Below, one piece after another: positions 37,080 to 62,191 of a DNA stretch of 64,000 nucleotides. The stretch lies in the NCBI RefSeq assembly GCF_001857965.1, contig NZ_CP017774.1:2418001-2482000 (forward strand), read 5' to 3'. Below the pieces are notes generated by a model that saw only the letters and a list, made by a program, of their open reading frames with translations, did not search any database and had not been told where the DNA came from. Made by a program: the position numbers and the translations under genes. The DNA is from Flavobacterium commune. Lineage in GTDB: Bacteria; Bacteroidota; Bacteroidia; Flavobacteriales; Flavobacteriaceae. Within the stretch, counting starts at the first letter, position 1, and the number at the start of each line of letters is the position of its first letter.

Positions 37080-37092
37080 GCAACCGATTGTG
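37080..37092. promoter_or_regulatory. CAATCGGTTG operator, copy 1 (inverted)
   Basis: Read on the - strand, the core CAATCGGTTG is identical to the copies at 56027, 61928 and 62180. It lies 16 bp upstream of TATATTTG (37102-37109), that is near the expected -33 region of a promoter for GH95. Confidence 0.65.
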
Positions 37093-37316
37093 TAATTTTT
37101 ATATATTTGTAAAGTTGAATTTATACTTAAGCTTTTGAGTCTGGCAAAAGAAGTTATAATTCAAAAGAAAAATAACAATCTGGTGATTAAAAAAAAACTT
37201 TAATTTGAAGGTTTTTTTCATCCCTTTTTTTAAGTGTTATTTAAACACATATATAAAGGGGCTGTTTGTTAAAATTGGAGTATTGGAGATAATTTAGGAT
37301 TTTGTCAATTAATAGA

Positions 37317-39776
37317 ATGAAAAACTTTTTTTTAATATACTTGGTTTTAGTGTTTTCATTGGGATATTCCCAAGAGAATAATAGACTGAAACTTTGGTAT
37401 AATCAACCTTCAGGGAAAACTTGGGAAAATGCTTTGCCTATTGGTAATGGTTTTCTAGGTGCTATGGTTTATGGAAATGTTGAAAATGAAATTATCCAGT
37501 TAAATGAAAATACAGTATGGAGTGGTGGACCGAATAGAAATGATAATCCAAATGCTTTAGCTGCTTTGCCGGAAATTCGAAAAATGATTTTTGATGGAAA
37601 ACATAAGGATGCTGAAAAATTAGCAAACCAGGCTTTTATTTCAAAAAAATCACAAGGGCAGATGTTTCAGCCGGTAGGGAATCTTAATTTAAGTTTTGAA
37701 GGACATGAAAAGTATTCTAATTATAGGAGAGAACTTAACATAGAAAATGCAATTTCAAAAACAAGTTATGAGGTTGATGGTGTAACTTATATGAGAGAGG
37801 CTTTTGTTTCATTTTCAGAAAGAGTGATTGTAATTCATCTTACGGCAAATAAAAAAGGGAGTCTTTCATTCACTGCTAATTATACTTCGCCCCATAAGAT
37901 TAAGAATTTTTCAGTAAGCAATTCAAAAGATCTTGAAATCACAGGTATTACCAGTGATCATGAAGGAGTAAAAAGTTTGATTAATTTTAAAGGAATAACT
38001 CGTATCAAATTAGATAACGGAAAATTAGAACAAACTGATAATTCACTTATTGTAAAAAATGCCAATGCTGCTACTATTTTTATATCAATAGCTACAAATT
38101 TTAATAACTATAATGATGTAAGCGGTAATGAAGCGAAACGTGCTGCTGATTATATGAATGCAGCCTATGGAAAATCTTATGAAACCCTTAAGAAGAAACA
38201 TATTGCTGCCTATCAAAAATATTTCAATCGGGTGAAATTAGATTTGGGGACAACTCCGGCAGCTGATTTGCCAACAGATGAGCGTTTGAAAAATTTTAGA
38301 AATACAAATGACCCACAATTTGTAGCATTATATTATCAGTATGGCCGCTATTTATTGATATCTTCTTCACAGCCTGGAGGACAACCGGCTAATTTACAGG
38401 GAATTTGGAATAACAGTCTTACTCCGGCCTGGGACAGTAAATATACTATTAATATAAATGCTGAAATGAATTATTGGCCTGCTGAAAAAACCAATCTTTC
38501 AGAACTACACCAACCTTTTTTAGAAATGGTAAAAGATCTAGCTGTGACGGGACAAGAAACTGCCAAAACCATGTATGGTACAAGAGGATGGATGGCACAT
38601 CATAATACTGATATTTGGCGGGCTACTGGTGCTGTGGATGGTGCTTTCTGGGGATTATGGACAGCAGGAGGCGGATGGGCCAGTCAGCATTTATGGGAAC
38701 ATTATCTTTATAAAGGGGATAAAGAATTTTTAGCATCTATATATCCTGTACTAAAAGGTGCAGCCTTATTTTATGTAGATTTTCTGGTAGAACATCCTAA
38801 ATATAAATGGATGGTTGTAAATCCGGGGAATTCTCCGGAAAATGCACCACAGGCTCATAATGGTTCATCGCTTGATGCAGGAACAACAATGGATAATCAA
38901 ATCGTTTATGATGTTTTTTCTACCACAATTCGGGCAGCACAAATTTTAAAAGAAGATGCTATTTTAATAGATACGTTGCAACAGTTACGCAGTCGATTGG
39001 CTCCGATGCATGTGGGAAAACACAATCAGCTTCAAGAATGGTTGGATGATATTGATGATCCTAAAGACAATCATCGTCACGTTTCTCACCTTTACGGATT
39101 GTTTCCATCTAATCAAATTTCGGCATACAAGACACCTGAATTATTTGCTGCTTCTAAAAATACTTTGCTTCAACGAGGCGATGTTTCCACGGGTTGGAGT
39201 ATGGGCTGGAAAATTAACTGGTGGGCAAAATTGCAAGATGGAAATCATGCTTTTTCGCTTATAAAAAATCAACTTACTCCTTTAGGTGTAAATTCAGGAG
39301 GTGGGGGAACTTATAATAATCTTTTTGATGCGCATCCTCCATTTCAGATTGATGGAAATTTTGGTTGTACTTCGGGAATTACAGAAATGTTAGTTCAAAG
39401 TTCTGACGGAGCTATTCATTTGCTTCCGGCATTAGCTGATGTTTGGCCAGATGGTAGCGTTGAAGGAATACGTGCTCGAGGTGGTTTCGAAATTGTAGAG
39501 ATGAAATGGAAGAATTATAAACTTACCAAATTAGTTGTAAAATCAACATTAGGAGGGAATCTAAGATTGCGTTTACCAAATAATCTCAAACAAAAATCAG
39601 GTGCTGAATTAGCAATGGCAAATGGAGAAAATCCGAATCCTTTTTATTTTGTTGATGAAACGGCACAAGCCATTATATCTGAAAAATCCAATATAAAACC
39701 ACTTGAGCTTAAACCTATAATATTGGTTGATATTGAAACAAAAAAAGGGAATGTTTACACATTTGTTAGTAAATAA
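37317..39776 (+). CDS. GH95 alpha-L-fucosidase / alpha-L-galactosidase
   Basis: ATG 37317 gives a normal signal peptide (MKNFFLIYLVLVFSLGYSQ) and 819 residues; the longer frame begins with TTG 37302. The N-terminal beta domain (~25-270) starts with LWYNQPSGKTWENALPIGNG and has LNENTVWSGGP, both GH95 hallmarks. The (alpha/alpha)6 barrel has ININAEMNYWPA (two Asn that activate water, ~380), NPGNSPENA (Glu ~507, general acid) and FQIDGNFGCTSG (Asp ~680). Known GH95 enzymes remove alpha-1,2-linked L-fucose or L-galactose from hemicelluloses and pectin. It is the first gene of the run after the operator, so it is probably transcribed together with the xylan enzymes. Confidence 0.92.
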   Translation: MKNFFLIYLVLVFSLGYSQENNRLKLWYNQPSGKTWENALPIGNGFLGAMVYGNVENEIIQLNENTVWSGGPNRNDNPNALAALPEIRKMIFDGKHKDAEKLANQAFISKKSQGQMFQPVGNLNLSFEGHEKYSNYRRELNIENAISKTSYEVDGVTYMREAFVSFSERVIVIHLTANKKGSLSFTANYTSPHKIKNFSVSNSKDLEITGITSDHEGVKSLINFKGITRIKLDNGKLEQTDNSLIVKNANAATIFISIATNFNNYNDVSGNEAKRAADYMNAAYGKSYETLKKKHIAAYQKYFNRVKLDLGTTPAADLPTDERLKNFRNTNDPQFVALYYQYGRYLLISSSQPGGQPANLQGIWNNSLTPAWDSKYTININAEMNYWPAEKTNLSELHQPFLEMVKDLAVTGQETAKTMYGTRGWMAHHNTDIWRATGAVDGAFWGLWTAGGGWASQHLWEHYLYKGDKEFLASIYPVLKGAALFYVDFLVEHPKYKWMVVNPGNSPENAPQAHNGSSLDAGTTMDNQIVYDVFSTTIRAAQILKEDAILIDTLQQLRSRLAPMHVGKHNQLQEWLDDIDDPKDNHRHVSHLYGLFPSNQISAYKTPELFAASKNTLLQRGDVSTGWSMGWKINWWAKLQDGNHAFSLIKNQLTPLGVNSGGGGTYNNLFDAHPPFQIDGNFGCTSGITEMLVQSSDGAIHLLPALADVWPDGSVEGIRARGGFEIVEMKWKNYKLTKLVVKSTLGGNLRLRLPNNLKQKSGAELAMANGENPNPFYFVDETAQAIISEKSNIKPLELKPIILVDIETKKGNVYTFVSK

Positions 39777-39809
39777 AACAATTTTATAAAAATTAAAAAT
39801 AGGACTAAA

Positions 39810-40652
39810 ATGAAAAAAAAATTAAATCTACTTTTTGCTTTCACACTATTATTTTTTGGAACAAATACATTTGCCCAAAATCCTAAATTTCATATTTATC
39901 TCTGTTTAGGGCAGTCTAATATGGAAGGCTATGCTAAAATTGAACCCCAGGATACTATAGTAAATAAGCGTTTTCAGGTTTTAGAAGCAGTAGATTGTGA
40001 TAATTTGAACAGAAAAAAAGGACAATGGTACACAGCAGTTCCGCCTTTGAGTCGTTGTACTACAGGACTTAGCCCGGCAGATTATTTTGGAAGAGAAATG
40101 ATTGCTAATCTTCCGCAAGATGTAAAAGTTGGTGTTATCAATGTAGCTGTGGGAGGATGTAAAATCGAACTTTTTGACAAAGATAATTATGAAGCTTACG
40201 TGAGTACAGCACCACAATGGTTGAAATCGATGGTGTCTCAATATGACGGGAACCCTTATGCCAGATTGGTAGAAATGGCTAAAATTGCTCAGAAAGACGG
40301 AGTGATAAAAGGAATATTATTACATCAGGGAGAATCGAATACTGGTGATACGCTTTGGACAAAAAAGGTAAAAGTAGTTTATGATAATTTATTGAAAGAT
40401 TTAAATCTTAAAGCTGAATCTACGCCTTTATTGGCTGGAGAAGTGGTTCATGCAGACCAAAATGGGGTATGTGCCGGTATGAATAAAATTATTGCCACTT
40501 TGCCTCAAACAATCCCCAATTCCTATGTGATTTCTTCCAGCGGATGCCAGGATGGTGCAGATAATCTTCATTTTACAGCCGAAGGATATAGAGTGTTAGG
40601 GAAACGATATGCTGCAAAGATGCTTGAGATAATGAAAAAGAATAAAATTTAA
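39810..40652 (+). CDS. CE6/SASA-type acetylesterase (acetylxylan esterase-like)
   Basis: A 280-residue secreted SGNH-type esterase (signal ends NTFAQN). The nucleophile is in CLGQSNMEGY (Ser ~34). GVINVAVGGCKIELFD gives the block II Gly, LLHQGESNTGD the block III Gln-Gly-Glu, and DNLHFTAEGYRVLG the catalytic Asp and His (~259). The motif GQSNM and a HQGESN block define the sialate O-acetylesterase/acetylxylan esterase group (Pfam SASA, CAZy CE6). Between GH95 and GH43 genes it most likely removes acetyl from xylan or xylo-oligosaccharides. Confidence 0.88.
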   Translation: MKKKLNLLFAFTLLFFGTNTFAQNPKFHIYLCLGQSNMEGYAKIEPQDTIVNKRFQVLEAVDCDNLNRKKGQWYTAVPPLSRCTTGLSPADYFGREMIANLPQDVKVGVINVAVGGCKIELFDKDNYEAYVSTAPQWLKSMVSQYDGNPYARLVEMAKIAQKDGVIKGILLHQGESNTGDTLWTKKVKVVYDNLLKDLNLKAESTPLLAGEVVHADQNGVCAGMNKIIATLPQTIPNSYVISSSGCQDGADNLHFTAEGYRVLGKRYAAKMLEIMKKNKI

Positions 40653-40695
40653 ATCAGGCTAGTCTTTTAAAATAACCAACCAAAAAAATATAAAT

Positions 40696-41655
40696 ATGAG
40701 ATTGAATACCAAGGTTTTATTGGCGTTTTGTTGTTTGTCGATGATTGAAATTACAGCACAAAATCCTATCATCAAGCATATTTTTACTGCTGATCCTTCG
40801 CCAATAGTACATAAAGATACGCTGTTTTTATACACAGGGCATGATGTCGCTACCGAAGCTGATACTAATTATAAAATGGCCGATTGGCATGTGTTTTCTA
40901 CAACTGATATGGCAACCTGGAAAGATCACGGGGCACCACTTTCGCCGAGTACTTTTTCGTGGGCTACAGGTGATGCTTATGCCGCACAGTGTATCGAGAG
41001 AAACGGGAAATTTTACTGGTTTGTTTCGACCTTTCATAAAAAAGATGGAGTTAGTGGAGGCGGAGCAGCTATAGGAGTTGCTGTTTCAGATACGCCTACA
41101 GGTCCTTTTAAAGATGCCATTGGTAAAGCTCTTGTGATAAACGAAATGACCAAAGATTTACCTCACGCTTGGGATGATATTGATCCTACCGTATTTGTGG
41201 ATGATGACGGACAAGCTTACATGTTTTGGGGGAATGGAAGCTGTAAATGGGTGAAATTGAAAGAGAACATGATAGAAATGGATGGTCCTATTGCCACTTT
41301 TAAACCTAAAAATTATATTGAAGGACCTTGGGTTTATAAAAGAAAAGGACTTTATTATTTGGTATATGCCAGTGCAGGTACAAAACCGGAAATGATTGAA
41401 TATTGTACCGCTACAAATCCCGCAGGTCCATGGACATACCAGGGGATTATTCAGGAAAATGTACCTAACAGTTTTACGACACATCCGGGAATTATTGATT
41501 ATAAAGGAAACTCATACTTTTTTTATCATAACGGAACTTTGCCTACAGGAGGTAGTTACAGACGCTCTGTTTGTGTAGATTATATGTATTATAATGAGGA
41601 TGGAACTATTCAGAAAATAGTACAAACTACTGAAGGTGTAAAAGCTTTAAAATAA
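40696..41655 (+). CDS. GH43 family glycosidase, single domain
   Basis: A 319-residue secreted five-bladed propeller enzyme (signal ends IEITAQ). The catalytic Asp is in FTADPSPIV (~33), the pKa-modulating Asp in DIDPTVFVDDDG (~159), and the acid Glu in IEGPWVYKRKG (~213). The family covers beta-xylosidases, alpha-L-arabinofuranosidases and related enzymes. It is close in motifs to the catalytic halves of the GH43-CBM6 genes at 51350 and 54639, but lacks CBM6. The specificity cannot be decided from reading. It starts 44 bp after the CE6-like gene. Confidence 0.9.
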   Translation: MRLNTKVLLAFCCLSMIEITAQNPIIKHIFTADPSPIVHKDTLFLYTGHDVATEADTNYKMADWHVFSTTDMATWKDHGAPLSPSTFSWATGDAYAAQCIERNGKFYWFVSTFHKKDGVSGGGAAIGVAVSDTPTGPFKDAIGKALVINEMTKDLPHAWDDIDPTVFVDDDGQAYMFWGNGSCKWVKLKENMIEMDGPIATFKPKNYIEGPWVYKRKGLYYLVYASAGTKPEMIEYCTATNPAGPWTYQGIIQENVPNSFTTHPGIIDYKGNSYFFYHNGTLPTGGSYRRSVCVDYMYYNEDGTIQKIVQTTEGVKALK

Positions 41656-41663
41656 AAATTGAC

Positions 41664-43223
41664 ATGAAAATAAGAGATACTTTTTTTTATATTGTTTTGC
41701 TGGTTGGTTTAACAATTACTACTAATTATGCTCAGGAAAATAAAGCTAAAAATCCATTGATTTATGCAGATGTTCCTGATTTATCAATGATTAGAGTAGG
41801 TGATACTTATTATATGAGTAGCACTACAATGCACGTTAATCCGGGAGTTCCAATTATGAAATCTACTGATTTAGTAAATTGGAAACTTGTCAATTATGCA
41901 TATGAAACATTAGAAGATGACAATGACAGGCTCAATTTAGATAATGGAAAAAATGATTATGGCAGAGGTTCATGGGCTAGCTGTTTGCGTTTCCATGAAG
42001 GAATTTATTATGTAAGTACTTTTTCAGGAACAACGGGTAAAACATATATTTTTTCTACAAAAAATTTAGAAAAAGGACCTTGGAAAAAAATAGTATTAAA
42101 CAACTCATACCACGATCACTCCATTCTTTTTGATGATGATGGAAAAGTGTATATGGTTTGGGGAGCAGGAAAAATTCAAATTATAGAGCTAAATAAGGAT
42201 CTTTCAGGAGTAAAAGAAGAAACTAAAAGAGTCTTAATAGAAAATGCAAGTGCTCCTGCTGGAAACAATATAATGTTGCAATCTGAAGGTTCTCAACTTT
42301 TTAAAATTAACGGAAAATATTATTTATTTAATATCAACTGGCCAAGAGGAGGAATGCGTACTGTAATTATTCATCGTGCCGATAACATCAATGGTCCTTG
42401 GGAAGGAAAAGTGGGATTGCAAGATCAGGGTGTGGCACAAGGTGGACTTATCGATACTCCAGATGGTAGATGGTTTTCTTATTTATTTAAAGATGCCGGA
42501 GGTGTGGGACGTATTCCTTATTTAGTTCCGGTTAAATGGGAAGATGGCTGGCCAATATTAGGAGTGAATGGAAAAGTTCCTGAATATTTAGATTTACCAC
42601 CAAGCAAAGGATTGATTCCTGGAATTGTAAATTCAGATGAGTTTACACGTAAAAGAAGTGATCAAGATTTGTCTTTAGTTTGGCAATGGAATCATAACCC
42701 AGACAATTCACTTTGGTCTGTGAGAGAGAGAAAAGGGTATTTAAGATTAAAAACAGCCAGAATAGACAGCAGTTTTGTTCAGGCTAAAAATACCTTGACT
42801 CAAAGAACTTTTGGACCTGAAAGTTCGGCTTCAACAATGCTTGAGATTTCTAAAATGAAAGAAGGAGACATGGCAGGACTTGCTTTACTGCAAAAAGAAT
42901 TTGGATTAATAGCGGTGAAAATTGAAAATGGTTCTAAAAAAATTGTAATGATTGATGCTTCCAAAGGAATTCCAAAAGAAATTGCAAGTGTAACTGTAAA
43001 CCAAGACAAAGTATATTTTAAAGCAGAATGTGATTTTAAAGATAGAGCAGATAAAGGAAAGTTTTATTACAGTTTGGACGGAAAAGAATGGATTAGTATT
43101 GGGAACACTATAAAGTTACCTTACACACTTCCACATTTTATGGGATACCGTTTTGGTCTGTTTAATTATGCTACAAAAAATACGGGTGGATATGTAGATT
43201 TTGATTGGTTCAGAATTAAATAA
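41664..43223 (+). CDS. GH43 family beta-xylosidase / alpha-L-arabinofuranosidase with C-terminal beta-sandwich
   Basis: A 519-residue secreted enzyme (signal ends NYAQEN). The GH43 propeller covers ~30-310, with catalytic Asp in IYADVPDLSMIRVG (~34-37), the second Asp in HDHSILFDDDG (~152) and acid Glu in QSEGSQLFKINGKYY (~213). The C-terminal ~200 residues (DEFTRKRSDQDLSLVWQWNHNP onward) are the concanavalin-like domain typical of beta-xylosidases of this family, which completes the active site. The start is 9 bp after the previous stop. Likely acts on xylo- or arabinoxylo-oligosaccharides. Confidence 0.9.
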   Translation: MKIRDTFFYIVLLVGLTITTNYAQENKAKNPLIYADVPDLSMIRVGDTYYMSSTTMHVNPGVPIMKSTDLVNWKLVNYAYETLEDDNDRLNLDNGKNDYGRGSWASCLRFHEGIYYVSTFSGTTGKTYIFSTKNLEKGPWKKIVLNNSYHDHSILFDDDGKVYMVWGAGKIQIIELNKDLSGVKEETKRVLIENASAPAGNNIMLQSEGSQLFKINGKYYLFNINWPRGGMRTVIIHRADNINGPWEGKVGLQDQGVAQGGLIDTPDGRWFSYLFKDAGGVGRIPYLVPVKWEDGWPILGVNGKVPEYLDLPPSKGLIPGIVNSDEFTRKRSDQDLSLVWQWNHNPDNSLWSVRERKGYLRLKTARIDSSFVQAKNTLTQRTFGPESSASTMLEISKMKEGDMAGLALLQKEFGLIAVKIENGSKKIVMIDASKGIPKEIASVTVNQDKVYFKAECDFKDRADKGKFYYSLDGKEWISIGNTIKLPYTLPHFMGYRFGLFNYATKNTGGYVDFDWFRIK

Positions 43224-43232
43224 AGATTGAGT

Positions 43233-44531
43233 ATGGTTATAAATAAATTTTATAAGCAGGATTATCATCGAATTATCCAATTTTTTGTACTGATTCTTAT
43301 TTTGATAGTTCCGGCTTTGGCCATAAGCCAAAACAAAAAGAAAACCGTAAAATCAGCAATCAAAACATCTCAATATCGTAATCTTTTTAAAGAAGCAGGT
43401 TACAGTCAGGTTGAAATAGACCAGAAATTAGCTAAAGCTTATTATGATATTTTTGAAGGTCCAAATCGTGTTTATTTTAAAGAAGGCGATTCTTTAGGTT
43501 ATGTTTCTGATGTTAAAAATAAAGATGCACGTACCGAAGGCATGTCTTATGGTATGATGGTAGCAGTTCAATTGGATAAAAAAGAGGTTTTTGATCGTCT
43601 TTGGCGTTGGTCGGTAAAATACATGCAGCATCAAAGTGGACCAAGAGAAGGCTACTTTGCTTGGAGTGTAAATCCAGAAACCAAGAAAAAGAATTCGCAG
43701 AATTCAGCTTCTGACGGGGAATTATATTATATAACCAGTTTACTATTTGCCTCTAATAAATGGGGTAATAATACTGGTATTGATTATTATAAAGAAGCTC
43801 GTAGAATATTAGATGCGATGTGGAAAAAAGATGGAACTGATAATGTATATAATCTGATTAATACTGAGCACAAGCAAATAAGTTTTGTACCTGAAGGAGG
43901 AAGTTACAATTGGACAGATCCTTCTTATCATTTGCCTGCTTTCTATGAAGTTTGGGCATTGTATGCTAAAGATGGACATGAGGAGTTTTATAAAGAATGT
44001 GCCAATGTTTCTCGTAATTTTTTGCATAAAGCCTGTCATCCTGTAACAGGTTTAAATGCAGATTATACAGAATTTAACGGTCAACCACATTCCACTCGAT
44101 GGATGCCGGCAGCTTTTCGTTATGATTCCTGGCGTGTTCCAATGAATATTGCGATGGATTATACCTGGTATGGAAAAGATAAAAAATGGCAGGAAGATTA
44201 CGCTAAGAGATTTCAAAATTTCCTTAAGTCTAAAGGATTAGAAACTTATGAGGATCAATTCAATCTGGACGGTTCTACTCCTGATTTTATTCTTCAGGCG
44301 GGTCCAGTTAAAAAGTTGAGACATTCTATAGGATTAGTATCTACGGCAGCAACTGCTTCACTTGTCAATAAAGATAAAGGAAGTGTAGATTTTGTTCGTG
44401 CAATTTGGAATGCTAAACTAGAGCCTTATGAAGATGGCTATTTTGATCCCTATTATGATGGTTTGATGTATCTCTTCAGTTTAATGCATCTTAGTGGAAA
44501 TTATCAAATTATAGAGCCAGAAATTAATTGA
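43233..44531 (+). CDS. GH8 reducing-end xylose-releasing exo-oligoxylanase-like enzyme
   Basis: The frame starts with TTG at 43227; ATG 43233 is preferred (432 residues). A membrane/signal segment (FFVLILILIVPALAIS, ~14-32) follows a basic stretch. The (alpha/alpha)6 barrel has the acid Glu in ARTEGMSYGMM (~101) and the base Asp in FRYDSWRVPMN (~299), with YNWTDPSYHLPAFYEVW between. Exo-oligoxylanases (Rex) of this family cleave xylose from the reducing end of xylo-oligosaccharides. The strong GH43/CE context makes this more likely than an endo-cellulase. It is the clearest sign that the run targets xylan. Confidence 0.9.
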   Translation: MVINKFYKQDYHRIIQFFVLILILIVPALAISQNKKKTVKSAIKTSQYRNLFKEAGYSQVEIDQKLAKAYYDIFEGPNRVYFKEGDSLGYVSDVKNKDARTEGMSYGMMVAVQLDKKEVFDRLWRWSVKYMQHQSGPREGYFAWSVNPETKKKNSQNSASDGELYYITSLLFASNKWGNNTGIDYYKEARRILDAMWKKDGTDNVYNLINTEHKQISFVPEGGSYNWTDPSYHLPAFYEVWALYAKDGHEEFYKECANVSRNFLHKACHPVTGLNADYTEFNGQPHSTRWMPAAFRYDSWRVPMNIAMDYTWYGKDKKWQEDYAKRFQNFLKSKGLETYEDQFNLDGSTPDFILQAGPVKKLRHSIGLVSTAATASLVNKDKGSVDFVRAIWNAKLEPYEDGYFDPYYDGLMYLFSLMHLSGNYQIIEPEIN

Positions 44532-44559
44532 AATTAAAATTTTTAAACTTAAAAAATAA

Positions 44560-45675
<1,116 letters not shown>

Positions 45676-45687
45676 AAAAAGATTTTT

Positions 45688-47770
<2,083 letters not shown>

Positions 47771-47814
47771 AAATAATCAGATATTGGATTAACAACGGTC
47801 TATAAAAAACAATT

Positions 47815-48993: not shown

Positions 48994-49123
48994 ATCATAA
49001 AGACAATTGTACCAAGAATGAACATAAGCAATGTATCATCTTCTACTTATTGTTGATTTTGGGATTTGATTTTTATTATTAGAAAAAGATAAAATTTTAC
49101 AAGACCATTAAAATATTTTTAAT

Positions 49124-50542: not shown

Positions 50543-50573
50543 TAAAAGAATCGTTCAAAAATAAAATCTAAAC

Positions 50574-51314: not shown

Positions 51315-51349
51315 TGGTTCTTTTTTTAATGTTATTAATAACAAAAATT

Positions 51350-52693: not shown

Positions 52694-52699
52694 ACACCA

Positions 52700-54634
52700 A
52701 TGAGAAATATATTTTTTTTATGCTGCTTCATCATTTTTTCAGCAGCTTATTCACAAAACACAATGTCGGTTTCCAGTCCTAATGGAGACCTGACATTAAA
52801 GGTGTTAATCAACGACGGAACGGCTTTTTATTCCGTTGCTTACAAGGGAGGAATTGTATTAGAAGATTCTCCACTAGGATTAATTACTAATGCTGGTGAT
52901 TTTACAACTAATATGAATTTTGTGAGTTCAACTACGGCAAAAGTAGAGGAAACTTACCATCAGACTAAGATCAAACAATCAAAAGTAAATTATAATGCCA
53001 ATACTTTGAACTGTGTATTTTCGAATGCCAAGCAACAAAAAATAGCAGTTTTGTTTCAGGTAAGTGATAATAATATTGCTTTTAGATATGAGCTTCCGGC
53101 ATGGGGAGATACTAAAGTATGTGTGGTTTCTGAAGAAAAAACAGGATTTAAATTTCCGTCATCAACAACAACTTTTCTTTCTCCGATGATGCGACCAATG
53201 ACAGGATTTGCCCGTACTGCACCAAGTTATGAAAGCGGTTACGAAGCGGATGCTCCATTGAGTAAAACCACATCTTCTGAAGGTTATGTGTTTCCGGGAC
53301 TTTTCAATTTAGCCAATAAAGCCTGGATTTTGTTATCCGAAACAGGAGTGAGTAGTTTGTATACCGCATCCCATTTAAGTGGGTATAAAAACGGTATATA
53401 CACTGTAGAGTATCCCAATCCGAAACAAAATAATGGTTTTGGAAGTTCGGGAGCACAAATAAGTCTTCCCGGAGTAACACCCTGGCGAACAATCACTGTA
53501 GGAGAAACACTAAAACCTATTGTTGAAACTACCATTCCTTTTGATGTTGTAAAACCACTTTACAAGCCTTCACAAGAGTATAAAATGGGACGCGGTAGCT
53601 GGAGCTGGATTGTATGGCAGGACAATAGTATGAACTATGAAGATCAGGTAAAATATATTGATCTGGCTGCTGCTATGAAGTTTGAATATATTTTGATTGA
53701 TGCCTGGTGGGATGATAGAATTGGTTATGACAAAATGAAAGAATTAATTAAGTATGCTAAATCTAAAAATGTTGAGGTATTCTTATGGTATAATTCTAAT
53801 GGTACTGTTAATGATGCTTTTCAGACTCCGCTCAATAAAATGAATACCGCTATTGCCCGAAAAAACGAAATGAAGTGGCTTAAAGAAGCAGGTGTAAAAG
53901 GATTGAAAGTGGATTTCTTTGGAGGAGATAAACAAGAGACTATGAAACTGTATGAAGATATTCTTTCAGATGCTAATGATTATGGTTTAATGATTGTTTT
54001 TCATGGTGCAACATTACCTCGTGGTTGGGAAAAAATGTATCCTAATTTTGTAGGAAGTGAAGCTGTAGTAGCCTCTGAAATGTTAATTTTTTCGCAGGAT
54101 GTACGTGAAAAAGAAGCTTATTTTGCGTCATTACATCCTTTTATTCGAAATGCAGTAGGAAGTATGGAATTTGGAGGCGTATTATTAAATAAATTTCTAA
54201 ACAAAGGAAATACAAAAGGACAAGAACGATTGACTACTGATGCTTTTCAATTAGCAACTTCGGTTCTTTTTCAAAATCCTGTTCAGATGTTTGGTCTGAC
54301 TCCTAATAATTTGACTGATGTACCTGCTTTTGAATTGGATTTTTTAAGAAAGGTTCCAACCACATGGGATGAAACAGTTTTTATAGACGGATATCCGGGC
54401 AAATACAGTGTTGTAGCCCGAAGACAGGAACAAAAATGGTATGTAGCAGGTGTAAATGCCGAGAAAACAGCTAAAGTTTTAAAACTAAAATTACCTATGC
54501 TTGCTGGTCAAACGATCACGATGTATAATGATAAAGCGGATAAAGAAACGTATACCACTAATTTAAAAGTTTCTAAAAATGGAGAATTGTCTATAACAAT
54601 ACAACCTAATGGAGGAGTTGTAATAACCAATTAG
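52700..54634 (+). CDS. GH97 glycosidase, retaining-type (alpha-galactosidase-like)
   Basis: A 644-residue secreted enzyme (signal ends AAYSQN). The N-terminal GH97 super-sandwich covers ~25-270 ([25 protein letters not shown]). The TIM barrel has [16 protein letters not shown] and the nucleophile Asp in [12 protein letters not shown] (~405). The acid/base is probably the Glu in [10 protein letters not shown] (~454), and a C-terminal beta domain follows. An Asp at this place marks the retaining branch (alpha-galactosidase type) rather than the inverting SusB type, which uses Glu residues. It may remove alpha-linked galactose decorations. It is 6 bp after the GH43-CBM6 gene. Confidence 0.88.
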
Positions 54635-54638
54635 AATT

Positions 54639-56003
54639 ATGAAACAACCTTATAAAATAGTAGCAATACTTATTACCATTTTAAATTGTACAATAGGAGA
54701 AGCACAAAATCCTATTGTACAAACCAATTATACTGCCGATCCGGCTCCTATGGTTTATAATGGCAAAGTGTATTTATATACCAGTCATGATGAAGATGAT
54801 TCTACCTGGTTTACAATGAACGATTGGCGATTGTATACCACCGACGATATGGTCAATTGGACTGATCATGGTGCTGTATTGTCTTATAAAGAATTCGATT
54901 GGGCAAAAATGAACGCTTGGGCACCACAATGTATAGAGCGAAAAGGAAAGTTTTATATGTATGTTCCCATAACTGATCGTCAGGGAAAGAACGGTATTGG
55001 AGTTGCTGTTGCTAATAGTCCTTATGGACCATTTATTGATCCGTTAGGAAAACCTTTAGTTTCAAATAGTAATGCCGATATTGATCCTACTGTATTTATA
55101 GATGATGATGGACAAGCTTATTTATTTTGGGGAAATCCGGTGTGTTATTATGTAAAGTTAAATGAAGACATGATTTCTTATAAAGGTGAAATCCAACAAA
55201 TTTCGAATACAATTGAAGCATTTGGCAAGCGTGAAGGAAAAGTAAATGAACAAAGACCAACTACTTATGAAGAAGGACCGTGGTTGTACAAACGCAATAA
55301 TCTTTACTATTTATTTTTTGCAGCAGGACCTATTTCGGAGCATATTGGGTATTCAACCAGTAAAAACATAACTGGACCGTGGAAATATCAAGGAGTTGTA
55401 ATGCCTACACAAGGAGGTTCTTTTACGAATCATCCGGGAGTTATTGATTTTAAGGGAAAAAGTTATTTTTTCTATCATAATGGAGCATTACCGGGAGGTG
55501 GAGGTTTCACCCGTTCTGTAAGTGTTGAAGAACTTAAATTTAATAAAGACGGTTCGATCGTGCAAATGAATATGACCGAAGGAATTAAACAAAGTTTAAG
55601 TCCGTTAAATCCTTTTACTAAAACGGAAGCAGAAACTATTGCCTGGTCAGAAGGTGTGAAGTCGATGAAAAATGATGTAGTTGGTAATTTTATTACAGCA
55701 AAATATAATAATGCTTATACCAAAGTCAAAGAGGTAGATTTTCGTCAAGAGGGAGCTTCAAAATTTACAGCCCGAATCGGTACAACGCATAATAGTAATG
55801 TAACTATGGAGGTACGATTGGACAGTAAAGAAGGAGAGTTAATTGGAACTGTAAATGTTCCAATGACAGGAGGAAATGACAGATGGGTATTACAGACAAT
55901 TGATATAAAAAAAGTATCCGGAATTCATGATGTCTATTTCGTTTTTAAAGGGAAAGCCCAAAAGGATATTATGTATTTTGATTATTGGAAATTCTCAAAA
56001 TAA
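54639..56003 (+). CDS. GH43 glycosidase with C-terminal CBM6, second copy
   Basis: A 454-residue secreted protein (signal ends TIGEAQN), 4 bp after GH97. The propeller has YTADPAPMV (Asp ~34), [12 protein letters not shown] (~150) and [12 protein letters not shown] (Glu ~212). CBM6 covers ~325-454 ([23 protein letters not shown]). It is a paralogue of 51350-52693. It has a longer loop in the propeller ([20 protein letters not shown]), which could change substrate fit. Confidence 0.9.
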
Positions 56004-56026
56004 TTTTATTTTTTTTTAAGAAAAAA

Positions 56027-56038
56027 GCAATCGGTTGT
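56027..56038. promoter_or_regulatory. CAATCGGTTG operator, copy 2
   Basis: GCAATCGGTTGT lies 24 bp after the preceding stop and 135 bp before the GH43 start at 56173. The T-rich surroundings hold no clear -7 box, though TAGGATTCG near 56056 is a weak match. It splits the enzyme run into a second possible transcription unit. Confidence 0.65.
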
Positions 56039-56172: not shown

Positions 56173-57906
56173 ATGAAAAAAACAAAAGTCTTACTATTAT
56201 TAAGCGTTGTTTTGTTATCTGTAACTGGAGCAAACAGCCAAAATAAACCAAAAAATAATCCTCCTTTATTTTCTAATTTCAGCTATCAAGGAAACGATCA
56301 GGTGTATATAGATAATCCATTAAAATCTGATGAGTTTTATACTCCTATTTTACAAGGATGTTATCCTGATCCGGCCATCACTAGAAAAGGGGACGATTAT
56401 TACATGGTATGTTCTTCATTTGCCATGTTTCCGGGTGTGCCTATTTTTCACTCTAAAGATTTGGTCAACTGGACTGACCTGGGAGGAGTATTGAATGATG
56501 TTACGCAATTCAATCCTCATGACACCGGAATTAGTGCTGGAGTTTATGCGCCTGGAATTACTTATAATCCTCATAATGATACATTCTATATGATTGTAAC
56601 GGCATTTTCAGGAGGTTTAAACAATATTATTGTAAAAACAAAAGATCCTAAAAAAGGTTGGGGGAATCCAATAAAATTAGGTTTTGGAGGTATCGATCCT
56701 TCTATTTTCTTTGATGATAACGGTAAAGGTTATATCGTTCATAATGATGCTCCGGATAATGGGAAAGAGCGTTACAATGGACATCGTGTGATTAAAATTT
56801 GGGAATATGATGTGGAAAATGATAAAGTAATTCCGGGAACTGACAAGATTATTGTTGATGGAGGAGTAGATCCTGCTAAAAATCCAATTTGGATTGAAGC
56901 ACCACATCTTTATAAGAAAGACGGAAAATATTTTTTAATGTGTGCTGAAGGTGGTACTGGAGGCAATCATACTGAGGTTATCTTTAAAAGTGATAGTCCA
57001 AAAGGACCATTTATTCCTGCACCAAGCAATCCAATTCTAACACAAAAGTATTTTGGAAGAGACAGAAAAAACAAAGTCGATTGGGCTGGTCATGCCGATT
57101 TGGTTAAAGGACCTGGAGACAAATATTATGGTGTTTTCTTAGCGGTTAGACCAAACGAAAAAAATAGGGTAAATACCGGTCGTGAAACTTTTATGCTGCC
57201 TGTAGATTGGTCTGGTGAATTTCCAGTTTTCGAAAATGGATTGATTCCATTGGAACCAAAAATGAAAATGCCACAAGGAGCTACTGAAAACAAAACAGGT
57301 AAGGAAGGATTCTTCCCGAATGGTAATTTCACTTTCAATGATAATTTCACATCAAACAAATTGGATAATCGTTGGATTGGTCTAAGAGGACCTCGTGAAA
57401 AATTTATAGCAATTACTAAAAAAGGATTACAAATTAATCCGTTTGAAACCAATATAAAAGAGTTAAAACCTACATCTACGTTGTTTTATCGCCAACAGCA
57501 TAATAGATTTTCATTGACAACAACTATTGATTACAAACCAAAATCAGACAAAGATTTAGCAGGTGTTGTAGCCTTGCAAAATGAAGGTTCTAATTATGTT
57601 TTTGGAATTACCATGAAGGATAAAGACTATTATGTAGTGCTGCAAAAAAATCAGAAAACAAGAAGAGATGCCGCAATAAATTCTACAATTGTGGCAAGTG
57701 CAAAAATAGATCTTAAAAAACCGGTTCAGCTTCAAATGAAAGCAAATGGAGATGATTATGAATTTGCTTATTCTGTCAACGGAACTGATTTTGTTAATGT
57801 AGGAGGAATTGTTTCCGGAGATATTTTATCAACGGATGTTGCAGGTGGATTTACAGGTTGTTTATTAGGATTGTATGCTACTTCAACTAATGATGCACGA
57901 CCATAA
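56173..57906 (+). CDS. GH43 beta-xylosidase-like enzyme with C-terminal beta-sandwich
   Basis: A 577-residue secreted enzyme (signal ends TGANSQN). A linker precedes the propeller, with catalytic Asp in GCYPDPAITRKG (~66), second Asp in GGIDPSIFFDDNG (~176) and Glu in WIEAPHLYKKDG (~240). VDWAGHADLVK supplies the metal-binding region. The C-terminal ~200 residues (FNDNFTSNKLDNRWIGLRGPR onward) are the concanavalin-like domain of beta-xylosidases. It likely releases xylose or arabinose from the non-reducing end, complementing GH8 at the other end. Confidence 0.92.
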   Translation: MKKTKVLLLLSVVLLSVTGANSQNKPKNNPPLFSNFSYQGNDQVYIDNPLKSDEFYTPILQGCYPDPAITRKGDDYYMVCSSFAMFPGVPIFHSKDLVNWTDLGGVLNDVTQFNPHDTGISAGVYAPGITYNPHNDTFYMIVTAFSGGLNNIIVKTKDPKKGWGNPIKLGFGGIDPSIFFDDNGKGYIVHNDAPDNGKERYNGHRVIKIWEYDVENDKVIPGTDKIIVDGGVDPAKNPIWIEAPHLYKKDGKYFLMCAEGGTGGNHTEVIFKSDSPKGPFIPAPSNPILTQKYFGRDRKNKVDWAGHADLVKGPGDKYYGVFLAVRPNEKNRVNTGRETFMLPVDWSGEFPVFENGLIPLEPKMKMPQGATENKTGKEGFFPNGNFTFNDNFTSNKLDNRWIGLRGPREKFIAITKKGLQINPFETNIKELKPTSTLFYRQQHNRFSLTTTIDYKPKSDKDLAGVVALQNEGSNYVFGITMKDKDYYVVLQKNQKTRRDAAINSTIVASAKIDLKKPVQLQMKANGDDYEFAYSVNGTDFVNVGGIVSGDILSTDVAGGFTGCLLGLYATSTNDARP

Positions 57907-57930
57907 GTAATTTTTGATAGTATTAAGAAG

Positions 57931-57966
57931 ATGGTTGTCCTGAATCGAAATATTCAGGACAACCAT
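57931..57966 (+). terminator. Perfect hairpin after GH43
   Basis: A perfect 15-bp stem (ATGGTTGTCCTGAAT/ATTCAGGACAACCAT) with a 6-nt loop, 25 bp after the stop. No long T-run follows, so it may end or protect the transcript. The 170 bp after it before the SGNH gene are AT-rich with no other feature seen. Confidence 0.7.
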
Positions 57967-58136
57967 AATTTAAGTCAAACTGAATTTTAAAATCAGTAGT
58001 TTTCCAATAATGCTTTTCATACGTAAAGCTAGAATCCTATTGTGTATTAACAATGACGTGATTTATTTATATAAATACTATTAATGTTGGGAAAATCTAT
58101 GTAAATGATGTTGTTAAAGCACAATAATAATTAATT

Positions 58137-59360
58137 ATGTATAAACGATATACAAGTTGGCTCTTATTTTTTTATTTACTGATTCTTTTTTCAGGATGTC
58201 AATCACAACGCTTATCAAATAATAAGTCAAGTTGGGTTGGAAGTTGGGCTACAGCACAACAACTAGTTGAACCACATAATGTACCTCCAAGTCCCGGACT
58301 TACAAATAATACCTTACGACAAATTATTAGAGTTTCTATAGGAGGTAAAAATATAAGGTTACATTTTTCCAATTTATTTAGTGATGAATCTACAGTTTTA
58401 GAATCGGTAACTGTTGCTAATGTTGTTGATGCTGCTATGATTGATGGTCAATCGCTTAAGCAACTTACTTTTGGCGGAAAATCATCAGTGACTATTGAAG
58501 CGAAAACGGATGTTTTTTCAGACGCATTTGATTTTCCATTACAAGCAGGTCAATTATTAGCTATTACAATTCATTATGGTAAAACAGCTTCGAAAATATC
58601 AGGTCATCCTGGATCTCGAACCACATCATTTCTTTTAGAAGGGGATCATAGTAAGAATGTCAATTTTTCTGGTGCAATTAAAACCGATCATTGGTATACC
58701 ATAATGGGAGTCGATGTTATGGCTTCCAAAAAAACAAATGCTATTGTTTGCTTGGGAAATTCAATAACAGATGGGAGAGGTTCAGGAACGAATAAGCAAA
58801 ATAGATGGACGGATATTTTGTCCGAACGATTATTAGCCAATCATGCTACAAATACTATAGGTGTATTAAATTTAGGTATTGGTGGTAATTGTGTTTTGAG
58901 AGGAGGTTTAGGTCCAACAGGATTAGAGCGTTTTGACAGGGATGTACTTTCTCAAAATGGAGTTAAATGGTTGATTCTTTTAGAAGGAATTAATGATATT
59001 GGAGGTATTCGAAAAGCAGAAGACGCAACTGTAAGAGCTAATGAACTCATTGAAGCTTATAAGGTAATGATAAGCAAAGCCCATGCTAAAGGAATAAAAG
59101 TGTACGGATGTACCATTTTACCTTTTAAAAAATCATTTTATGATGCCGATTTTAAACAAGAAGCCAGAAGTATTGTAAATGAATGGATACGATCTGGCAA
59201 GAGTTTTGACGCGGTTATTGATTTTGATAAAGTGATGGAATCAAATACAGAATCACAGACTATTTTACCTGATATGCATGATAACGATTTTTTACATCCT
59301 AATGAAAAAGGTTATCGTCGTTTAGGAGAGGCAATTGATCTGGGATTATTTAAAATTTAA
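58137..59360 (+). CDS. SGNH/GDSL hydrolase lipoprotein (probable carbohydrate esterase)
   Basis: A 407-residue lipoprotein with the signal LILFSGCQSQR (Cys ~22). Residues ~30-200 are a beta-rich accessory domain (SWVGSWATAQQLVEPHN). Residues ~200-407 are the SGNH fold: CLGNSITDGRGSG (Ser ~206), LNLGIGGNCVLRGG (Gly), LLEGINDIGG (Asn ~283) and DNDFLHPNEKGYRRLGEA (Asp/His ~382-387). The motif GNSITDGRGS with a large N-terminal domain is that of a secreted esterase group found next to xylan and pectin enzymes. Deacetylation is the likely job; the substrate is not shown. Confidence 0.85.
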   Translation: MYKRYTSWLLFFYLLILFSGCQSQRLSNNKSSWVGSWATAQQLVEPHNVPPSPGLTNNTLRQIIRVSIGGKNIRLHFSNLFSDESTVLESVTVANVVDAAMIDGQSLKQLTFGGKSSVTIEAKTDVFSDAFDFPLQAGQLLAITIHYGKTASKISGHPGSRTTSFLLEGDHSKNVNFSGAIKTDHWYTIMGVDVMASKKTNAIVCLGNSITDGRGSGTNKQNRWTDILSERLLANHATNTIGVLNLGIGGNCVLRGGLGPTGLERFDRDVLSQNGVKWLILLEGINDIGGIRKAEDATVRANELIEAYKVMISKAHAKGIKVYGCTILPFKKSFYDADFKQEARSIVNEWIRSGKSFDAVIDFDKVMESNTESQTILPDMHDNDFLHPNEKGYRRLGEAIDLGLFKI

Positions 59361-59402
59361 TATTTATAAAACAGGAATTGGTTATCATTCAAAATAATAA
59401 TT

Positions 59403-61682
59403 ATGGAGTTAAAAAAAATTAAATATGTATTACTGCTTATCTGTATTCAGTCTTCTTTTGCTCAAATGCAACCCTTCAAATTGCAGGAAGTAAGGCTTAC
59501 AGATGGTGTTTTCAAAAAAGCTCAGGATGTTGATTTAAAATACATTTTAGATCTAAATCCAGATAAATTGCTTGCTCCATATCTAATTGATGCAGGATTG
59601 CCATTGAAAGCTCAACGATATGGCAACTGGGAAAGTACAGGATTAGATGGCCATATTGGTGGACATTATTTGTCTGCATTAGCTATGATGTATGCCAGTA
59701 CCGGAAATAAAGAACTAAAAACCCGTCTGGATTATATGGTTAATGAACTGGCTCTTTGTCAGGCAAAGAATGGTAATGGCTATGTTGGAGGAATTCCTAA
59801 TGGGAAAGTATTTTGGGAACGTATTCACAAAGGAGATATTGACGGAAGTACTTTTGGGTTAAACAATACATGGGTACCTATTTACAATATTCATAAGCTT
59901 TTTGCAGGTTTACGTGATGCTTATGAGATAGGAGGTAATAATCAGGCAAAACAAGTATTGATAGGATTAGGCGATTGGTTTATTGAATTGATACAACCAC
60001 TTTCTACTGAGCAAATTCAGCAAGTATTGAATACAGAGCATGGAGGAATCAACGAAACTTTTGCTGATTTGTATATTATTACCAAAGACAAAAAGTATCT
60101 TGATGCAGCAAAAAGACTTTCGCATCTTAAAATTTTGAATCCTTTACTTGAAAAACAAGATAAGCTCACAGGGCTTCACGCTAATACACAAATACCAAAA
60201 GTAATTGGTTTTGAAAAAATTGGCACATTGACAAACAATGCTGAATGGGAACATACAGCGGAATATTTTTGGCATAATATTACAGAAAATCGCAGTGTTG
60301 CATTTGGAGGAAACAGTGTTCGGGAACACTTTAATCCAACTAACGATTTTAAAAGTATGTTAGAATCCAATCAGGGACCTGAAACTTGTAACAGTTATAA
60401 TATGCTTCGATTAAGTATGGCTTTATTTTTAGATAATAATGATGTGAGTTATCTTGATTATTATGAACGTACACTTTATAACCATATTTTATCGACTCAA
60501 CATCCTGAAAAAGGAGGTTTTGTATATTTTACACCCATTCGCCCAAACCATTACAGAGTTTATTCACAACCAGAAACTAGTATGTGGTGTTGTGTGGGTT
60601 CCGGGATAGAAAACCATACCAAGTATGGTGAATTAATATATAGCCATTCTGATAAAGACGTTTTTGTTAATCTTTTCATTCCTTCTGAATTGAATTGGAA
60701 AGAAAAAGGAATTCAACTGATACAAAAAAATAATTTTCCAAATGAGAATGCTACTGAATTACTATTAAAACTGAATAAAAAACAGACATTCTCTCTTAAC
60801 ATTCGTTATCCTAAATGGGCTGAAAATATTAAAGTTATAGTGAATGGAAAAGCAGAAGTAGTGAAGGCCAATCCTTCAGAATATATTAATTTGAATAGGA
60901 ATTGGAAAAATGGTGATAAAATTGTTGTGCAATTTACGATGAACACCAAATTAGAATATCTTCCAGACGGTTCTAATTGGGCAGCTTTTGTACGCGGACC
61001 TATCGTTTTAGCAGCTAAAACTTCTACAGATGATTTAAAAGGACTTTTTGCTGATGATAGTAGAATGGGACATGAAACAAGAGGAAAATTGTACCCAATT
61101 AATGAAGCTTATGCCTTGGTAGACGATTCTAAAAATTATGTTTCAAAATTGCAACCTATTGATAATATGAATTTCAAAATGGATTCATTGACTTTACAAC
61201 CTTTTTATCAAATTCATGATGCACGTTATCAAATGTATTTTCAAACTTTCACCCAAAAAGATTATGAAAAACAAAAAGAGGCTCAAAAACAAAAAGAAAT
61301 GGAACTTTTAGCCATTGAAGCTAAAACTGTAGATAAAATTAATTGTGGTGAGCAACAACCAGAGGTGGATCATCAGTACAAAGGGGAACAAAGTAATTCC
61401 GGTTATAATGATGAGAAATTTTGGCGTACTACACGTTCCTATATTTCATACCAACTACAAAACAAAAACAATGCAGGTAAATACACTGAAATCACTACTT
61501 TGAATGATGCTAATCTTGAAAATATTGAAATTACAATCAATGGAAATGAAGCTAAAATAATTGCCGTTGAAAGTAAGCTTATTAAAATTGAAGTACCAGT
61601 AGAAGAGAGTTTTCAATTGAAGATTACTGCCAAAAATAAAATTGTATCGCCTCGTTTTTATCAAATAAGGATTTTAAAATAA
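59403..61682 (+). CDS. Beta-L-arabinofuranosidase, GH127/GH146 type (DUF1680)
   Basis: A 759-residue secreted enzyme (signal ends SSFAQ). The (alpha/alpha)6 barrel begins LDLNPDKLLAPYLIDAGL and holds STGLDGHIGGHYLSALA. The Zn-Cys catalytic centre is visible: QGPETCNSYNM (Glu ~326, Cys ~328) and MWCCVGSGIENH (the CC pair ~397-398). These are the cysteines of the thiolate-based mechanism in GH127/GH146. The C-terminal part has beta-sandwiches and a Gln/Lys-rich helix (KQKEAQKQKEMELLAIEA). It removes beta-L-arabinofuranose, found on arabinan and arabinoxylan-type polymers. GH146 is a close alternative to GH127. Confidence 0.9.
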   Translation: MELKKIKYVLLLICIQSSFAQMQPFKLQEVRLTDGVFKKAQDVDLKYILDLNPDKLLAPYLIDAGLPLKAQRYGNWESTGLDGHIGGHYLSALAMMYASTGNKELKTRLDYMVNELALCQAKNGNGYVGGIPNGKVFWERIHKGDIDGSTFGLNNTWVPIYNIHKLFAGLRDAYEIGGNNQAKQVLIGLGDWFIELIQPLSTEQIQQVLNTEHGGINETFADLYIITKDKKYLDAAKRLSHLKILNPLLEKQDKLTGLHANTQIPKVIGFEKIGTLTNNAEWEHTAEYFWHNITENRSVAFGGNSVREHFNPTNDFKSMLESNQGPETCNSYNMLRLSMALFLDNNDVSYLDYYERTLYNHILSTQHPEKGGFVYFTPIRPNHYRVYSQPETSMWCCVGSGIENHTKYGELIYSHSDKDVFVNLFIPSELNWKEKGIQLIQKNNFPNENATELLLKLNKKQTFSLNIRYPKWAENIKVIVNGKAEVVKANPSEYINLNRNWKNGDKIVVQFTMNTKLEYLPDGSNWAAFVRGPIVLAAKTSTDDLKGLFADDSRMGHETRGKLYPINEAYALVDDSKNYVSKLQPIDNMNFKMDSLTLQPFYQIHDARYQMYFQTFTQKDYEKQKEAQKQKEMELLAIEAKTVDKINCGEQQPEVDHQYKGEQSNSGYNDEKFWRTTRSYISYQLQNKNNAGKYTEITTLNDANLENIEITINGNEAKIIAVESKLIKIEVPVEESFQLKITAKNKIVSPRFYQIRILK

Positions 61683-61927: not shown

Positions 61928-61940
61928 GCAATCGGTTGTG
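61928..61940. promoter_or_regulatory. CAATCGGTTG operator, copy 3
   Basis: GCAATCGGTTGTG; its right half supplies the TTG of the -33 element of the promoter at 61936-61966, so a bound regulator would directly compete with RNA polymerase. Confidence 0.7.
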
Positions 61941-61966
61941 TTTAATATTATTTTATTATATATTTG
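61936..61966 (+). promoter_or_regulatory. Bacteroidota-type promoter (TTG-N20-TATATTTG)
   Basis: TTG at 61936-61938 and TATATTTG at 61959-61966 are spaced by 20 nt, as in the -33/-7 consensus TTG and TAnnTTTG of this phylum. Predicted transcription start is near 61973. The first hairpin downstream is at 62061-62092. Confidence 0.6.
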
Positions 61967-62060
61967 TTTAATTCTTAATCTTTTGTTAATTAAGATGTCT
62001 GTTGTTTCGTGAATTTTGAGAATCGAGGTTTTTAGAATTTTAGTTAGTGTGGTTTGTAGT

Positions 62061-62092
62061 AAAGGCCGGGAATTGGTTACTCTCGGCTTTTT
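62061..62092 (+). terminator. Hairpin with T-tail inside the leader
   Basis: Arms AAAGGCCGGGA and TCTCGGCTTT pair with one bulge and a G:T or mismatch, and a short T-run follows. It stands about 90 nt after the predicted start of transcription and 420 nt before the SusC ATG. It could end a short RNA or act as an attenuator. Confidence 0.55.
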
Positions 62093-62179
62093 AAGAGTCA
62101 GTAACTATTTTTGCGATATATATAGAAGTTTTGATGTTGTATAAGAATTAAAAACGCTCGGAAAAATTGAAAAAAGAAT

Positions 62180-62191
62180 GCAATCGGTTGT
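62180..62191. promoter_or_regulatory. CAATCGGTTG operator, copy 4
   Basis: GCAATCGGTTGT, 252 bp after copy 3 in the same orientation. A weak -7-like TAGGTTG lies at 62214-62220. The two copies in one gap could support looping between two bound regulators. Confidence 0.65.

Follow-up and report, generated by a model that had tools for sequence, protein, structure and literature searches.

A LacI-family regulator and its candidate operators in the glucuronoarabinoxylan locus of Flavobacterium commune

The window analysed here is a 64-kb stretch (G000:C1:2418001-2482000) of the genome of Flavobacterium commune (G000), a single contig of 3.85 Mb. Positions are counted from the first letter of the window, also for features lying beyond its right edge. 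A preliminary description of this DNA had reported four identical copies of a palindrome resembling LacI-type operators, all between genes of a hemicellulose region. These copies belong to a set of sites that are very probably the operators of LacI*, a cytoplasmic LacI-family repressor which would control a glucuronoarabinoxylan locus and be released by a xylan-derived sugar. Computation showed directly the sites themselves and their almost exclusive placement, together with their conservation, their linkage to LacI* and, in SusC-type promoters, the phasing of the -7 box relative to them.

The 10-mer CAATCGGTTG occurs five times exactly in the window (37081-37090, on the minus strand, 44737-44746, 56028-56037, 61929-61938 and 62181-62190), against a mean of 0.15 in dinucleotide shuffles of the window, none of 100 of which gave five copies. 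The four copies reported earlier are all real; the fifth, at 44737-44746, had been overlooked and contradicts the claim that the motif always lies between genes, being located inside a putative esterase gene (44563-45675), while the restriction to the hemicellulose part holds within the window. The whole genome contains 16 copies, against three for the reversed pattern used as a control. Ten of them are within open reading frames (ORFs): 44737, 90137 (in a transketolase gene), and those of L001-L007 and L016. The other six are intergenic, namely the four first reported and those at 73940 and 100476, and all six lie in one 63-kb xylan locus (37080-100487). A genome scan, proposed earlier as a check for copies scattered randomly within genes, therefore gives a mixed answer, with 10 of 16 in genes yet every intergenic one in the xylan locus. 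Two of the intergenic assignments are judgements: at 73940 there is overlap with an ORF of 70 aa on the opposite strand, and the 100476 copy is inside the GH3 ORF if this is read from the ATG that makes it longest. The ATG at 100583, like the GH3 starts of two relatives (G005 and G161), puts this copy between GH67 and GH3.

Extension of the 10-mer by one base on each side gives the 12-mer GCAAYCGRTTGY, a short palindrome with a central CG, which is found at exactly six places in 3.85 Mb, the same six intergenic sites. When one mismatch is allowed the signal is near background (38 matches forward and 38 in reverse; the control gave 18 and 35). A weight matrix trained on 155 sites of relatives, with F. 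commune excluded, was used to scan 124 kb. The six sites came out on top (21.5-27.0 bits), followed by 44736 (20.3 bits), after which scores dropped to 11.6 bits, a value in the range of mononucleotide-shuffled sequence (maximum 14.6). Five of the six sites are 107-575 bp from the gene downstream (GH95, GH43c, SusC1 twice and GH98), and the sixth is positioned between the divergent GH67 and GH3 operons. The regulon expected from the preliminary description (GH95, the GH43 unit and SusC1) does carry sites, but it is wider, since GH98 and the GH67/GH3 operons have them too.

Seven LacI-family genes are present in the genome, and one of them, LacI*, is in the xylan locus. It lies on the minus strand at G000:C1:2522951-2523979 (104951-105979), at the end of the locus, 4.5 kb past the last site. 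The earlier suggestion of a LacI-type regulator beyond the right edge is borne out by its existence, although it is found 41 kb past that edge and not beside the next SusD. LacI* is 343 aa long and has the helix-turn-helix (HTH) of the family (PF00356 at residues 8-53, 43.7 bits for a cut-off of 27) and a periplasmic-binding-protein-like sensor domain (PF13377, 109.9 bits; PF00532, 101.8 bits). Among proteins of solved structure, those closest to it by sequence are CcpA proteins, RbsR and PurR being lower in the list. As regards a C-terminal tetramerisation helix of the E. coli LacI kind, matches to Lac repressor chains stop at about residue 306 of 360. Of the 18 NCBIfam models matched, none passed its cut-off; the best reached 211.9 bits, below the 436 required for CytR, so that LacI* attains no named equivalog status and belongs to an unnamed group. 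The recognition helix reads L-A-T-S-T-I-S-R. Its T-S pair is found in none of the six paralogues; among 51 LacI* orthologues the S is invariant and the T variable.

The link between LacI* and the 12-mer was examined in 199 sampled Flavobacterium genomes, with a LacI* threshold of E <= 1e-140. LacI* is present in 38 of them (46 genes). These 38 genomes hold 167 distinct 12-mer places, 95 of which are within 25 kb of LacI*, where a uniform spread would give about two; at least one 12-mer is that close in 36 genomes, the exceptions being G031 and G184. The regions around LacI* were then collected from 32 of the 46 genus genes, that of F. commune included, and from 20 orthologues of other genera (52 regions, 1.59 Mb). 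The 12-mer pattern occurs in 48 of the 52 regions, whereas 300 letter-permuted patterns occurred in 0.65 regions on average and in 10 at most. Among the 256 half-sites with a YCGR centre GCAA ranks first; the second, ACAA, is a variant frequent before a gene of the major facilitator superfamily (MFS). This linkage leads me to infer that GCAAYCGRTTGY is the operator of LacI*. The operator is nearly always asymmetric in its inner bases (TCGG or CCGA), with 22 cases of GCAA-TCGG-TTGC and 17 of its reverse complement, and the symmetric TCGA centre is rare (2 cases in the 52 regions).

Position with respect to genes was studied in 51 regions fetched from the genus, 19 of which had been picked because they hold sites away from LacI*. 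Out of 98 sites, 93 are outside ORFs. For 95 a gene starts no more than 1 kb downstream on either strand, and 92 of these sites are 50-500 bp before the nearest start. The nearest genes are SusC-type in 32 cases, GH67 in 27, GH3 in 13 and MFS in 7, the others being scattered or unnamed. Before the MFS symporter gene there is a recurrent pair, ACAATCGGTTGT and ACAACCGATTGT, exactly 78 bp apart, found, among 45 of 59 rows examined, in at least G097, G008, G131, G015 and other LacI* regions.

A second line of evidence comes from GH67, scored as an alpha-glucuronidase domain over cut-off, with a sub-threshold match in G025 and two fragments in G207 excluded. The domain is present in 40 of the 199 genus genomes and co-occurs with LacI* in 37; one genome has LacI* only, three have GH67 only and 158 have neither (Fisher p = 1.6e-35, phylogeny being ignored). 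In 36 of the 37 genomes with both, an exact 12-mer is found upstream of GH67, 490-591 bp before the conserved domain, and the sole exception, G096, is a 75% complete genome. By contrast, none of the three genomes lacking LacI* has a site upstream of GH67, not even the wider form RCAAYCGRTTGY within 18-19 kb around; two of these three loci have a different LacI gene (33% identical).

Conservation extends to individual genes of the locus and beyond the genus. In G005, whose LacI* is 86% identical, sites precede GH95 and GH43c and a pair precedes SusC1. Where the GH43c orthologue is at least 89% identical, the site is there in all six genomes, F. commune and G005, G364, G342, G256 and G161, 99-133 bp before the gene in the latter five. 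At least two sites precede the SusC1 homologues (53-92% identical) of eight relatives (G005, G364, G342, G348, G256, G295, G414 and G161). Conservation upstream of orthologous enzymes, which the preliminary description had named as a check, is nevertheless incomplete: more distant GH43c homologues (64-82%, three of the six cut by the region end) have a site within 700 bp in two of six cases, and the GH95 genes of G134, G161, G364 and G342 have no site of their own at up to 700 bp. G364 and G342 do have sites before the SusC gene that lies upstream of GH95. A search of 397 genomes of the family gave 47 passing E <= 1e-85 for LacI*. Among 20 orthologues from other genera (57-75% identity, out of 32 listed at 56% or more), examined with the 20 kb around each, 18 have an intergenic exact 12-mer, mostly beside GH67. 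In 80 named genome loci, partly from the same genomes, the strict form is found in 68 and the wider form in 72.

The layout of the promoters bears on how LacI* may act. Bacteroidota promoters have a -33 element. The -7 box of Flavobacterium sigma-A promoters is given as TAnnTTTG, at -12 to -5 (PMC9723704). This box was sought at offsets 0-52 downstream of the 12-mer in 126 site-strand rows. Counted from the 12-mer to the start of the box, offsets of 17, 18 and 19 bp are represented by 1, 17 and 3 rows, respectively (21 of 126), and all other downstream offsets together by 11 rows (six at 0-16 and five at 20-52). The 21 phased rows, many of which are homologous promoters and hence not independent cases, belong to SusC-type genes (18 of 39 rows, including SusC1 of F. 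commune), GH8, GH115 and a GH30-like gene. In the phased SusC-type promoters the operator spans -42 to -31, which is the place of the -33 element. Four other rows, half of them upstream of GH3 and half upstream of other genes that diverge from GH67, have a -7 box ending at the first base of the operator, and by eye F. commune shows the same arrangement; an operator abutting the box in this way would cover the start site. Before MFS genes the box is 36 bp upstream of the operator in four of eight rows. A single -7 box layout common to all promoters found no support, and the repressor layout is well seen at SusC-type promoters, less so elsewhere. Spacings of paired sites include 78, 111-113, 121, 252, 284, 307-309, 322, 338-351 and 366 bp; judged by eye only, they suggest no single helical phase.

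From these observations I infer binding, the dimeric state, the extents of the operons, repression (not activation) and the nature of the inducer. LacI*, encoded at the far end of the 69-kb glucuronoarabinoxylan utilisation locus, would bind GCAAYCGRTTGY as a dimer in the cytoplasm. Its predicted targets are the GH95 operon, the GH43-GDSL-GH127 unit, SusC1-SusD1-SusC2-SusD2, GH98, and the divergent pair formed by the GH67-GH115-GH10-transporter-GH43-transketolase operon and the GH3 operon. From a position over the -33 element or close to the start site, LacI* would block RNA polymerase. A xylan-derived sugar entering through SusC/D and an inner-membrane GPH-type symporter would then lower the affinity of LacI* and turn the locus on. 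Candidate inducers are xylose, xylobiose and a glucuronated xylo-oligosaccharide; the symporter, together with xylA in relatives, suggests xylose or a short xylo-oligosaccharide reaching the cytoplasm. In G015 the GH67 operon also includes a xylose isomerase (TIGR02630) and a fructose-6-phosphate aldolase (TIGR00875), both over cut-off, as well as a xylulokinase-like kinase (below cut-off), a mannonate dehydratase and a GntR-type regulator.

Several results weigh against this interpretation. Of the 167 12-mer sites in the LacI* genomes, 72 lie either beyond 25 kb from LacI* or on a different contig, and at least one 12-mer is found in 114 of the 161 genus genomes that lack LacI*. The 12-mer is so common in genomes without LacI* that its presence alone is undiagnostic, position and clustering being what is informative; its use as a simple marker of LacI* was rejected, since 152 of the 199 genomes have at least one copy. 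Four of the 52 LacI* regions have no 12-mer (G184, G207a, G082 and G530), and the exceptions among other genera are G530, with none, and G460, with a single copy called inside an ORF. The weight-matrix scan gave no site upstream of the LacI* gene itself in F. commune. The phased -7 box is absent from all 29 GH67-side rows, which have no box at a fixed place, and from all five LacI*-side rows, and the box abuts the operator in just two of 17 GH3-side rows. In F. commune the 18-19 bp spacing is found at the first SusC1 site only; at GH95 it is 10 bp, and the GH43c, GH98 and second SusC1 sites have no downstream -7 box. The three site-less GH67 proteins are distant from that of F. commune (54-57% identical), which makes them a weaker control, although GH67 genes of like distance in other genera (51-72%) do have the site where LacI* is present. 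In some relatives, finally, a gene for a GntR-type regulator is in the same operon.

One possibility is that LacI* is no local repressor but acts mainly as an activator, or as a CcpA-like global catabolite regulator. CcpA is able both to activate and to repress, and CcpA proteins are nearest to LacI* by sequence among solved structures; the lack of a recognisable -7 box at a fixed place in GH67-side promoters would leave room for another layout there. Activators, however, are rarely found over the -33 element or the start site. With the -12 to -5 placement of the box (PMC9723704), the site lies over the -33 element (-42 to -31) in the phased SusC-type promoters and over the start site in two GH3-side rows. 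The confinement of exact sites to the xylan locus in F. commune indicates that LacI* is not global. This reading is unlikely. Still less probable is binding of the sites by a different protein, be it one of the six LacI paralogues or the regulator of GntR type found beside xylA/xylB in relatives. A GntR gene is part of the G015 GH67 operon, genes of the same length occupy the same place in other relatives, and some 12-mers occur in genomes without LacI*. Yet 17 of the 20 regions sampled at the family level combine LacI* and an intergenic 12-mer with no GntR homologue within 20 kb, and none was seen among the F. commune locus proteins scanned. As for the paralogues, none has the T-S pair of the LacI* recognition helix, the one at 21014 is flanked by a palindrome of its own, and the two GH67 loci with a different LacI gene are without the site.

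That the repeats reflect chance, composition or a mobile or structural repeat is scarcely credible: the 10 of 16 genomic 10-mers that lie in genes do look random, but the shuffle, permutation, position, phasing and conservation tests are all contrary to it. Repression by LacI* remains the preferred reading. A broader hypothesis, for which I judge the chances about even, is that one orthologous, cytoplasm-sensing LacI-type repressor runs complete SusC/D xylan loci across Flavobacteriaceae, comprising outer-membrane uptake and, in relatives, xylose catabolism, where hybrid two-component systems (HTCS) would be expected. The operator would have been fitted to unrelated promoters, those of SusC, GH8, GH115 and GH30-like genes, with a constant spacing to the -7 box, and the frequent pairs, separated by tens to hundreds of bp, may form repression loops.

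The presence of GH10, GH67, GH115 and GH43 points to glucuronoarabinoxylan as the substrate of the locus (37302-105979). Its products are GH95, a SASA esterase, several GH43, GH8, four esterases, GH97, GDSL and GH127, together with two SusC/SusD pairs, GH98, a GH30-like protein, a GH2 beta-galactosidase-type protein and GH5, and with two transketolase subunits, GH43, a GPH-type symporter, GH10, GH115, GH67, GH3 and SASA-GH2. The features described in the rest of this paragraph are on the plus strand. The first operator, GCAACCGATTGT (37080..37091), is 225 bp before GH95 (ATG start at 37317) and is followed after 10 bp by a TAnnTTTG-type -7 box, TATATTTG (37102..37109; consensus from PMC9723704). 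Short gaps and a common strand suggest a putative operon at 37302..56003, which by ORFs and Pfam would comprise GH95, the SASA esterase, two GH43, GH8 and four esterases, then a Gfo/Idh/MocA protein, a member of the 3-keto-disaccharide hydrolase family, GH43-CBM6, GH97 and another GH43-CBM6. The in-gene copy ACAATCGGTTGT (44736..44747) is probably a coding coincidence. Its role as a true operator is unsupported beyond the closest orthologue, the copy being kept only in that of G005 (93% identical protein) and absent from the Est1 homologues of G364, G342, G256 and G161. The next operator, GCAATCGGTTGT (56027..56038), is 134 bp before the GH43 (GH43_C2) gene, termed GH43c above, with which begins a GH43, GDSL esterase and GH127 unit (56173..61682; ORFs and Pfam). 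The same sequence, GCAATCGGTTGT, recurs at 61928..61939, on the predicted -33 element of the SusC1 promoter, where it has the top weight-matrix score in the 124 kb, with a -7 box, TATATTTG, 19 bp after it (61959..61966). The second SusC1 operator, again GCAATCGGTTGT (62180..62191), is 252 bp downstream of the first and has no TAnnTTTG behind it. SusC1, a TonB-dependent receptor, fills 62514..64000 and runs on to 65693; SusD1, SusC2 and SusD2 follow.

Between the two SusC1 operators, in the predicted SusC1 5' leader, is a hairpin, AAAGGCCGGGA...TCTCGGCTTTT, followed by T (62061-62091), which could be a terminator or attenuator. As a conserved RNA it is unsupported: Rfam gave one weak sub-cut-off match nearby on the other strand, the hairpin is not among the terminator-scan output, and the matches listed from a DNA search of 398 genomes cover mainly promoter and gene start, the hairpin not clearly. 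The transketolase pair of the locus (89481-91396, L018:5481-7396) is 95.5-97.5% identical in DNA to a second pair (L001:258-2170, about G000:C1:603.4-605.3 kb), apparently the result of a recent duplication that brought a pentose-phosphate enzyme under the xylan regulon.

Domain scans of the 38 locus ORFs, made on the whole protein for 35, on part of SusC1 and SASA-GH2 and on a 32-aa piece of SusE2, revealed no HTCS, SusR or ECF regulator; such a regulator may act from elsewhere in the genome. The adjoining SusC/D locus (26158-36900) opens with an extracytoplasmic function (ECF) sigma/FecR anti-sigma pair (26158-27996) beside its own SusC, so that two styles of regulation stand side by side. 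Further left, a LacI-family gene (21014-22033) is flanked by exact CGTAATCGTTTACG palindromes at 20982-20995 and 22039-22052, in agreement with the sites reported there earlier, as expected of an autoregulated local LacI regulon that would be separate from the xylan one.

LacI* resembles the LacI, CcpA, PurR, RbsR and CytR repressors in its HTH and periplasmic-binding-protein-like sensor, and in its probable operator, a palindrome with a central CG that in the SusC-type cases lies on the promoter; it differs from them in being tied to a polysaccharide locus of the SusC/D type. In Bacteroidota the control of such loci has mostly been described from gut Bacteroides, with periplasmic sensors (HTCS). 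The HTCS xylan polysaccharide utilisation loci (PULs) of B. ovatus and P. bryantii are alike in that a SusC/D xylan locus is controlled; such systems sense in the periplasm, and no HTCS domain was found among the locus proteins scanned. The systems of B. ovatus, P. bryantii and Xanthomonas campestris are described as run by LacI-family or HTCS regulators (PMC12125979). In Bacteroides thetaiotaomicron, LacI-family regulators of uronate use come under monosaccharide pathways, polysaccharide loci are under HTCS and SusR-like regulators, and xylose control is ascribed to the NrtR-family XylR (PMC3878776). Bacteroides UxaR, UxuR, KdgR and UxmR are of the same phylum and protein family as LacI*, and the uronate catabolism concerned overlaps the glucuronate side chain of xylan (PMC3878776, PMC4052901). 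A survey of LacI-family regulons mentions neither xylan nor Flavobacter- in its main text (PMC4052901). A lacI gene appears in the key of the xylan PUL figure of Gramella flava JLT2011, which is in the same broad group, Flavobacteria, together with xynA, xynB, aguA (GH67), xylA, xylB, xylE and SusC/D; both main-text mentions of LacI are in the figure legend, with no operator or regulon test there (PMC5306329). With the G. flava PULs (PMC5306329) and the Bacteroides uronate regulators (PMC3878776) as precedents, a LacI-type PUL regulon is less unusual than the preliminary description had it. Among the papers listed in searches of open-licence PMC articles, none by its title or abstract maps LacI operators in a Flavobacteriaceae xylan locus. 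The proposed LacI* xylan regulon would be new; LacI-type repressors are a classic family and no new mechanism is involved.

The conserved operator provides a handle on how Flavobacterium may switch on the degradation of plant hemicellulose. It predicts regulon genes in named species, for example in the loci of F. johnsoniae CI04, F. sufflavum and F. cellulosilyticum, and the sites could offer a sugar-inducible promoter for genetics in Flavobacterium.

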